Part shown: positions 24,278 through 34,721 of the stretch, one piece after another
Layout: the number at the start of each line of letters is the position of its first letter
Position numbering within the stretch: the first letter of the stretch is position 1
From: Erysipelotrichaceae bacterium
Lineage (GTDB): Bacteria > Bacillota_I > Bacilli_A > Erysipelotrichales > Erysipelotrichaceae
Reading direction: 5' to 3'
Length of the DNA stretch: 34,721 bases
Assembly (NCBI GenBank): GCA_017459795.1
Contig: JAFUCG010000004.1
Coordinates: 1 to 34,721, forward strand
Made by a program: the position numbers and the translations under genes
The notes under the pieces: generated by a model
Databases searched by the model: none
The model's input: the letters and a program-made list of their open reading frames with translations, nothing else
What the model was told of the DNA's origin: nothing

Positions 24278-24293
24278 AATTTCACCAAAATAA

Positions 24294-24370
24294 ATGGTAC
24301 ACACACAATTTGCTTACGTGGCTGCTACATTCCTGTCCTGACCAAATTAAAGTTAGTTGTGTTGTACCAT
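24294..24370 (-). ncRNA. ffs: Signal recognition particle RNA, short 4.5S-like form
   Basis: The minus strand holds the conserved SRP apical domain: GGTCAGGACAGGAATGTAGC followed by AGCC, matching the E. coli 4.5S core (GGTCAGG, GGAA tetraloop, AGCAGCC). The ends pair: the 5' arm beginning ATGGTAC at 24370 matches a 3' arm ending GTACCAT at 24294, giving a closed hairpin of about 77 nt with one bulge. It lacks the Alu domain of the long Bacillus form. A TTGAAA-17-TATAAT promoter predicts a start near 24368. Location between serS and tadA is conserved for SRP RNA. The gene was placed by motif and pairing only. Confidence 0.92.
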
Positions 24371-24374
24371 AGAT

Positions 24375-32969: not shown

Positions 32970-34337
32970 TTACTTATGGTGTGAAAAAGTAGATTCTATT
33001 TCAATTACGGCCTTTTTATAAGAGTCATTATCTCTTATTAATTTCTCTATTTTTTCACATGCTGATATGACTGTAGCGTGATCTCTGCCGCCAAATTCCT
33101 CACCAATCTTCAAATAAGATAAGTCAAGTTTCTTTCTGGCCAGATACATTGCGATATGTCTGGCATTGGATATGTTCTTTGTTCTTGATTTACCAAGGAT
33201 CTGCTGCTTGGTTAAGCCATAGTAATCAGAAACTGAATTAATGATGTCCTTGAAATCAAGATTCTTTGAACTGCTTGAAAAATCACCGATGTTATCACTG
33301 AAGGCTTCCATCGCTATATTTATATCTATTTTATTATTATTAGAGAAGTTTATTGAATAAAACAGTAATCTGTTAAGCGACCCTTCAAGACTTCTGACAT
33401 CACTTGAGAAGTTGGTTGCCAGAAATGACAGTACTTCAGGATCAATTGATGATTCATCTATGCCATGATTCTTTATCTTCATCTGTAAGATCTTATAAGC
33501 TGTTTCATATTCAGGTGTTGTAACGGTTAAGGTTAACCCCTGAGAGAATCTTGATATTAATCTTTCCTCAATGTCCTTGATCTGAACAGGAGGTCTGTCT
33601 GAAGATAAGATTATCTGTTTTCTGTTATTGAATAACTCATTATAGATGTCAAAAAAAACATCATTTGATGCCTTTTTACCAGATAATAGCTGTATATCAT
33701 CCATCATGAGGACATCTAGGGAATTTAGTTGATTTTTAAGCATATCGATTTCCTTGTTTTTGATAGCCATTACTACCTGGTTAACAAAGGCACTGCTGGA
33801 AATGTATAAAATCTTCTTTTCAGGCAGTTTATTCTTAATGTAATTACCTACTGCGCACAGTAAGTGGGTTTTACCCAGACCGGAATCACCATAAATGAAT
33901 AATGGATTGTAAATGTTACGGCCTGGATTTGTTGCGACAGCCAGGCAGGCAGCGTAAGCTTCTTTATTGCTTGGACCGTGAACAAAGTTTTCAAAGGTAT
34001 ATTCAGGCATTACATTGTCGGAAATCTTGTTGATTTGTTTGATAGTGTTCTGATCATTCTTTAATTTAATGTAATCTTCTTTATATAATACTCTGGCTCT
34101 GATCTGCTTGTTTAAAACTTCCTTTAATGAATTGTTTATCAGATTAAGGTTTTCGATGTCATTTAAAATAAGAGTATGGAACTGGTATTTGGTGAGAACG
34201 ATGGCTTCCTTATCATTAATTTCAGCTAATTCTGTCTCATCAAAAAACTCCGAGTAAACAATACTCTTATCATCATTATCTAAAGTTGATTTTATTAAAT
34301 CTTTGACTTGATTCCAGATAAAATTCAGTGAATACAT
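32970..34337 (-). CDS. dnaA: Chromosomal replication initiator DnaA
   Basis: The 455-residue protein has domain I (about 1-85), a linker, the AAA+ domain with Walker A G150-D-S-G-L-G-K-T-H and Walker B M-M-D-D-I-Q-L-L-S-G-K, and the DNA-binding domain IV with the DnaA signature G416-G-R-D-H-A-T-V-I-S-A-C-E-K-I. It binds DnaA boxes, opens the origin and loads helicase. Likely binding sites are present on both sides of the gene, at 32881-32899 and 34426-34540. The start at 34337 has only a modest AGGT upstream, which may keep translation low. Confidence 0.98.
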   Translation of the reverse strand: MYSLNFIWNQVKDLIKSTLDNDDKSIVYSEFFDETELAEINDKEAIVLTKYQFHTLILNDIENLNLINNSLKEVLNKQIRARVLYKEDYIKLKNDQNTIKQINKISDNVMPEYTFENFVHGPSNKEAYAACLAVATNPGRNIYNPLFIYGDSGLGKTHLLCAVGNYIKNKLPEKKILYISSSAFVNQVVMAIKNKEIDMLKNQLNSLDVLMMDDIQLLSGKKASNDVFFDIYNELFNNRKQIILSSDRPPVQIKDIEERLISRFSQGLTLTVTTPEYETAYKILQMKIKNHGIDESSIDPEVLSFLATNFSSDVRSLEGSLNRLLFYSINFSNNNKIDINIAMEAFSDNIGDFSSSSKNLDFKDIINSVSDYYGLTKQQILGKSRTKNISNARHIAMYLARKKLDLSYLKIGEEFGGRDHATVISACEKIEKLIRDNDSYKKAVIEIESTFSHHK

Positions 34338-34443
34338 TGTGCGTGACCTACTTCCGAATATGATTGTAATTATATTTTAGAATAAAAAGTGAATAATATA
34401 AATTACTAAATTGCTTGCCAAAAATTTATCAACACTTAAAAAA

Positions 34444-34465
34444 AGCCTTTAAAAAGGCTATTTTT
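34444..34465. terminator. Small hairpin inside oriC, terminator-like in both directions
   Basis: AGCCTTT (34444-34450) pairs with AAAGGCT (34453-34459), flanked by A and T runs on both sides. It separates the AT-rich DUE-like part from the DnaA box cluster. Confidence 0.55.
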
Positions 34466-34508
34466 AAGCATTATATTGAGTTTTCCACCATTTTCCACAA
34501 AATGATTT

Positions 34509-34517
34509 TGTGGATAA
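34509..34517 (-). promoter_or_regulatory. Consensus DnaA box
   Basis: TTATCCACA on the minus strand, the exact consensus, next to the tandem pair at 34481-34499. Confidence 0.85.
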
Positions 34518-34569
34518 ATTGTTAATAGTTATGTTGATAAAAATAATTGTTGATATTGTAAATAACAAT

Positions 34570-34593
34570 CCGCACGTGAAACGTGCGGTTTTT
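34570..34593 (+). terminator. Strong hairpin with T-run beside oriC
   Basis: CCGCACGT and ACGTGCGG form a perfect 8-bp stem with loop GAA, followed on the plus strand by five T. On the minus strand the same hairpin would close the GC-rich segment. No plus-strand gene is seen to its left, so its use as a terminator is uncertain. Confidence 0.6.
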
Positions 34594-34721
34594 AGGCTCC
34601 CCTGTAAGGGCCTATACCGCACAGCGACCCTAAAGGGTCTTGTGTAGTCCGACAACCGTGCTCTGCACTATGGCCTACCCCTTAAAGGGGTCCACATACT
34701 CCTTCTTGCTCAGATTGTCAG
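34570..34721. ncRNA. GC-rich hairpin-dense segment, candidate structured RNA or mobile-element end
   Basis: Five hairpins follow each other: 34570-34588, 34593-34614 (TAGGC/GCCTA), 34620-34644 (GACCC/GGGTC inside CACA/TGTG), 34658-34668 (GTGC/GCAC) and 34678-34690 (CCCC/GGGG). GTGCGGT at 34583-34589 is also complementary to ACCGCAC at 34616-34622, so the first hairpin and a helix enclosing the second are mutually exclusive. The GC content is well above that of the surroundings. On the minus strand a frame open from the edge stops at 34675, so the segment could be the 3' end of a protein gene plus an RNA, as in TnpB elements; an rpmH leader is another option. The family is not recognised. Confidence 0.45.

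Follow-up and report, generated by a model that had tools for sequence, protein, structure and literature searches.

IS200 elements are widespread and are kept nearly silent. Members of the group, such as IS200 and IS1541, span about 0.7 kb and carry one gene, tnpA, for a Y1 transposase; they lack terminal inverted repeats and target duplication, have a hairpin near each end, insert 3' of a short T-rich target, and form a hairpin over the ribosome site in the tnpA 5'UTR. Their near-silence has so far been explained by this ribosome-site hairpin, antisense RNA and Hfq, and the RNA features known in IS200 are the ribosome-site stem-loop, the antisense RNA art200 and the 5'tnpA RNA (PMC12594629). 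The 5'tnpA RNA of Salmonella (STnc490, Rfam RF01405) derives from the tnpA 5'UTR with its ribosome-site stem-loop; PMC12594629 presents it as a 5'-end RNA and art200 as an antisense RNA, and makes no mention of a partner in the tnpA 3'UTR. At the DNA level, each TnpA monomer binds a hairpin at each end (PMC7290912). IS200/IS605 elements are known to move as single-stranded DNA with the polarity of the tnpA mRNA (abstract of PMC6006769). In IS605-type elements of the same superfamily, the right end downstream of the gene is the site of the TnpB omega RNA (reRNA). A precedent for a bacterial mRNA whose 5'UTR and 3'UTR base-pair with each other is icaR of Staphylococcus aureus, a host gene whose translation is controlled by the pairing (abstract of PMC3868564).

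The window analysed here is a stretch of 34,721 nt from an Erysipelotrichaceae genome, and it ends in a GC-rich structured stretch. The initial annotation had proposed that this stretch might be the omega RNA of a TnpB or IscB element, overlapping the nuclease gene at its 3' end and taking its guide from oriC DNA, or else a regulated leader or switch beside oriC. We identify it, with virtual certainty, as part of an insertion sequence of the IS200 group: positions 34561-34721, on the minus strand, form the right end of a 724-bp element. The gene, the terminus and the target are as follows.

34675..34721, minus strand: 3' end of tnpA (Y1 transposase), ...DNLSKKEYVDPFKG and stop, truncated by the window edge
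34561..34569, minus strand: right terminus of the element, ...ATTGTTATT, last base 34561
34338..34560, no strand assigned: dnaA-side half of the oriC region, the target flank (DnaA-box scan and flank alignment)
34426-34434, 34491-34499, 34509-34517 (perfect) and 34532-34540: DnaA-box-like 9-mers found by the scan
32970..34337, minus strand: dnaA, a 455-aa ORF assigned to DnaA by reading and by its position beside DnaA boxes

As the initial annotation had observed, a minus-strand frame enters at 34721 and stops directly before the structures, at TAG 34677-34675. Its residues are identical to the C-terminus of a complete 154-aa ORF at locus L008 of the same-genus genome G006 (contig C161). This ORF matches Pfam PF01797 (Y1_Tnp, E 1.3e-39) and is the single transposase ORF of a complete 724-bp copy lying within the contig. 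The gene that ends at 34675, with structure following it, is indeed of transposase type and belongs to the IS200/IS605 superfamily, but it is tnpA (Y1) and not tnpB. The omega RNA, leader and switch readings were dropped on finding this complete one-gene copy: the 154-aa Y1 transposase is its sole gene, no Rfam omega or guide family matched, and oriC is a mere insertion target instead of a guide. The probability left to the earlier reading is close to nil. Unlike the omega RNA of IS605-type elements, the structure here belongs to the tnpA mRNA of an element that has neither tnpB nor a guide. The only TnpB-type match in this genome is an unrelated locus on another contig; L010 (G000:C53) encodes a TnpB-type protein of 425 aa with OrfB_IS605 and Cas12f1-like TNB domains, beside a Mutator-type transposase on a short contig.

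Rfam at the gathering threshold returned nothing for this stretch, so that no curated covariance model for a riboswitch or other known structured RNA matched. Sub-threshold matches fell mostly on the AT-rich DNA to the left, and to the right of 34597 the GC-rich element had none. The 3'UTR could not be assigned to any Rfam family in scans that covered the whole window, the short stretch and ten loci. Elsewhere in the window, the minus strand at 24288-24373 carries a bacterial small SRP RNA (Rfam RF00169, 57 bits).

The further copies that the initial annotation proposed to look for were present. The last 161 bases are 100% identical in the G006 copy and 98% identical in a second right end of this genome, at the end of contig C102; three left ends were also found in this genome, likewise at contig ends. 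The window and C102 terminate at the identical base within the element, as expected of an assembly broken at a repeat. The window edge is thus a contig end within a repeat, and the feature extends past it. A pattern scan of viral contigs did not find the right terminus. The complete copy holds a single Y1 (HUH) transposase gene of about 150 aa, of which the oriC copy shows only the 3' end; subterminal hairpins occur at both ends (on the right at 34570-34588, on the left in L008); and the insertion lies 3' of a fixed short sequence with no target duplication. By every feature tested, the window element is a member of the IS200 group.

The transposase has near relatives in Pasteurellaceae, Erysipelotrichaceae and other Firmicutes, with identities reaching 91-93%. 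Erysipelotrichaceae-type genomes and Pasteurellaceae share a transposase that is about 90% identical (L011-L013, L017 and L018 compared with L008), while many Firmicutes copies are less close. This distribution suggests a recent transfer of the transposase between phyla.

The boundaries of the element were defined from four junctions at each end. The right junctions all end in ATTGTTATT and then diverge, the first flanking base being T, G, A or C; at each left junction, TTATT or TTGTT directly precedes AGTTAGGAG (AGTTAGG at the element start). The initial annotation had correctly placed oriC next to the structured stretch. The left half of the oriC target is the flank at the end of contig C127, and when the C127 and window flanks were joined they were collinear with G006 (74% over 3.2 kb), with no junction gap and no duplication; they also aligned to genome G005 in two pieces, with no gap at the junction. 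The empty site is thus continuous in two relatives, indicating that the element landed inside oriC, 3' of TTATT and among DnaA boxes. At the junction G006 carries a perfect DnaA box, TTATCCACA, where this genome reads TTATT/TACA (the slash marks the insertion point). The element has therefore split oriC, the adjacency of C28, the contig of the window, and C127 being taken from synteny. The genes dnaA and tnpA read in the same direction.

Several copies (L138 on G000:C114, L008 and L139) sit directly behind the T-rich tails of predicted terminators, for example ...GATCAGCCTTTTTTGTT immediately before the element, so that the target preference puts the element at gene ends. Locus L003 (G000:C102) has a run of jag-, yidC- and rnpA-like genes (ORFs named by reading) on a contig other than that of dnaA, adjoining oxidoreductase and prepilin peptidase genes. 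In two relatives the neighbour upstream of dnaA encodes a secreted SH3/glucosaminidase-type protein. This genus thus seems to have lost the common gene order rpmH-oriC-dnaA. No rpmH gene was located.

The unusual structure that drew attention to the stretch was confirmed on both strands. The minus strand of 34545-34721 folds at -66.3 kcal/mol (z -4.7, with 0/200 shuffles as structured), and the plus strand of the structured stretch has a z of -4.1 against shuffles. The structural features on the minus strand are the following.

34570..34588, minus strand: right-end hairpin CCGCACGTTTCACGTGCGG, with a T5 tail on the plus strand and terminator-like there
34593..34614, minus strand: 3'UTR hairpin B, TAGGCCCTTACAGGGGAGCCTA (predicted fold)
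34626..34639, minus strand: 3'UTR hairpin A, GACCC-TTTA-GGGTC (homologue alignment)
34646..34657, minus strand: 3'UTR strand GGTTGTCGGACT of a conserved 12-bp helix (covariation and fold)

Conservation of the hairpins was scored on an alignment of the 3'UTRs of 15 elements. The right-end hairpin, which the initial annotation had recognised as terminator-type, was paired in 100% of cells, with both-sided changes at 7/8 pairs, and hairpin A in 94%, with both-sided changes at 4/5 pairs. Hairpin B as drawn was paired in 65% of cells, a partial support. The first two hairpins covary; the switch helix that had been drawn between 34583-34589 and 34616-34622 is not conserved. This helix can be drawn in the present copy, but only 42% of its cells were paired across the 15 homologues, a value that 53/500 shuffles reach and that one slid register exceeds; it was rejected, its pairing being no better than that of shuffled partners.

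In transposition the right-end hairpin most likely serves, as DNA, as the binding site of TnpA, a role established for the family. Through its T5 tail on the plus strand it is also predicted to be terminator-like for transcription entering from outside, and its L008 counterpart scored as terminator-like. The hairpin loop is inverted between two copies of the same genome (plus strand CCGCACGTGAAACGTGCGG in one and CCGCACGTTTCACGTGCGG in the other; window 34570-34588 and L003 3785-3803), with nearly identical flanks, as if the palindrome had flipped.

When the UTRs of homologues were set side by side, part of the tnpA 5'UTR proved complementary to a segment downstream of the stop codon. The 3'UTR of the window does therefore take part in conserved pairing, as a regulated RNA might, although its partner is not the one drawn in the initial annotation but the tnpA 5'UTR, which lies beyond the window edge. 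For 34646-34657 this partner is GGTCCGACAACC, in the left end of the element (L008 minus strand; contig ends of C127 and C114). The paired 5' and 3' stretches differ from element to element: GGCTGACAACC with GGTTGTCAGCC, GGTTTGCCAACC with GGTTGGCAAACC, TTGTTCAAGCTACT with AGTAGCTTGAACAA, and GTTACCAGCCA with TGGCTGGTAAC. Across 41 divergent representatives, an element's own UTR pair scored 28.0, while permuted pairs averaged 20.5 (z 12, a score that 0/20000 permutations reach), and seven controls built from coding, reversed, complemented or upstream sequence gave z values of -1.3 to 2.5. For about one third of the 41, the own 3'UTR did not rank in the top 5%. The pairing is weaker in the E. 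coli IS200 (L124), and no clear 3'UTR partner was seen in L097. A short IS1541C stretch from a Yersinia virulence plasmid (L125) was left out of the analyses.

Covariation was counted in 18 elements, the 5' pieces and the 3' pieces each having an alignment of their own. At the true register 91.7% of cells pair, compared with at most 51% when the pieces are slid, and 8/12 pairs have changed on both sides, a count that 0/500 shuffles reach. G.U outnumbers A.C by 26 to 6, which argues that the tnpA-sense strand is the strand that pairs. Conserved complementarity between the UTRs of one mRNA, the hallmark of icaR-type mRNAs, is thus present here, and we are confident that the covarying pairing is real.

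Inverted repeats near the ends are common among insertion sequences generally. On that ground the two stretches could be what is left of an ordinary inverted repeat that a protein recognises in its double-stranded form, no strands pairing with each other. However, their sequence changes completely between elements while the complementarity stays, and a mismatch bias of this kind is not expected of a double-stranded site, which makes such an origin very improbable.

A role in DNA is another alternative. In the excised single-stranded top strand, the near-left and near-right stretches could pair and so join the ends for excision or circle formation. Both stretches lie about 60-110 nt inside the element ends, and the covariation and the G.U bias fit either level, since the moving strand and the mRNA have equal polarity (abstract of PMC6006769). 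Against this, fifteen loci of distant Y1 transposases (28-36% identity), which share the mode of movement, were without the pairing next to tnpA (own 20.3, compared with 19.6), the stretch beside tnpA being what was compared and the true right ends lying outside it. An extension of the 5'-3' pairing to these transposases was accordingly rejected.

The position of the tnpA promoter bears on the same question. In 25/31 representatives the helix is preceded, at a distance of 3-8 nt, by the end of a -10 hexamer with at least 5/6 matches, compared with 0-4/31 at other positions; the promoter of the window's element type is TTGTTA-17-TATAAT. A DNA role does not predict that the 5' strand should lie so precisely behind a -10 box, within the ribosome-site hairpin, and we regard pairing in DNA as unlikely, although it carries more weight than the other alternatives. 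Because the upstream arm of the ribosome-site hairpin contains the -10 box, a transcript initiated at this promoter is predicted to start at the helix, in the loop of the hairpin, and would lack the anti-Shine-Dalgarno strand. The -10 box within the ribosome-site hairpin and the 5'-3'UTR helix set the Firmicutes-type elements examined here apart from the IS200 group as described. The stable 5'tnpA RNA of Salmonella contains the ribosome-site stem-loop (PMC12594629), and transcription must therefore start elsewhere there. With a cut-off of 56 bits, RF01405 matches the 5'UTR of one relative, L028, at 63.7 bits; the 5'UTR of L008, the element type of the window, gave no match.

Folding of the predicted transcripts without constraints agreed with the promoter position. 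With the native start, the helix formed with P > 0.5 in 26/28 divergent elements; in L031 the scored helix was not formed in the fold. In transcripts reading through from upstream it formed in 1/28 elements under a folding model that excludes pseudoknots, so that pairing of the loop with the 3'UTR could coexist with the hairpin in read-through RNA. Mean predicted pairing of the ribosome site was 0.33 in native-start and 0.75 in read-through RNA. For the window's element type, the native-start fold gave the helix a P of about 0.9-0.99 over most of its length, with a duplex energy of -20.9 kcal/mol.

The pairing might also act in trans: a small RNA, either cut from the 3'UTR or transcribed from it, would pair with the tnpA 5'UTR and so repress it, putting a brake on copy number. 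Two covarying hairpins make the 3'UTR a compact, structured region; an antisense RNA exists in IS200 (PMC12594629); and control of a transposase by small RNAs encoded near the gene is known for ISPpu9 (abstract of PMC8450116). However, no sense-strand promoter stands out near the 3'UTR, the tnpA promoter being the only one listed there, and the 5' strand is predicted to be free only in self-initiated RNA, where pairing in cis is favoured. We consider a trans-acting role improbable, more so than one in DNA.

We favour, by a little over an even chance, a role of the helix as a check on transcript origin and completeness that acts on the RNA. A transcript from the element's own promoter would begin in the loop of the ribosome-site hairpin, free of the anti-Shine-Dalgarno strand, and its 5' end would pair with the 3'UTR of the same full-length RNA. 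We infer that this pairing would leave the ribosome site comparatively open and would shield the 5' end from nucleases, affecting both translation and stability. RNA reading in from outside would fold the upstream hairpin instead and hide the ribosome site, so that transposase would be made mainly from complete, self-initiated transcripts. In icaR the pairing serves a host gene and controls its translation (PMC3868564), whereas in the IS200 helix the 5' strand is the predicted 5' end itself and the ribosome site is predicted to open. More tentatively, and with slightly less than even confidence, we extend this model to IS200-group transposase mRNAs in general: a covarying helix between the first dozen nucleotides and the 3'UTR, together with a promoter inside the hairpin, may report where transcription began and whether it was completed, so that stability and translation would be confined to transcripts that are complete and self-initiated.

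Our full-text literature search found no description of 5'-3' pairing in IS200; the primary IS200 papers lay outside its scope, and novelty is provisional. The pairing of the mRNA ends is apparently an undescribed control feature of the IS200 family. As such the feature in the window is ordinary, and what makes it of interest is that the pairing is conserved. The window is also a record of a chromosomal origin that an insertion sequence has split, with DnaA boxes around the point of entry. The pairing model yields point predictions that can be tested by reporter assay. If it is true, the pairing would explain why these elements have a structured 3'UTR, and the covarying pairing of mRNA ends would be an added layer of IS200 silencing.
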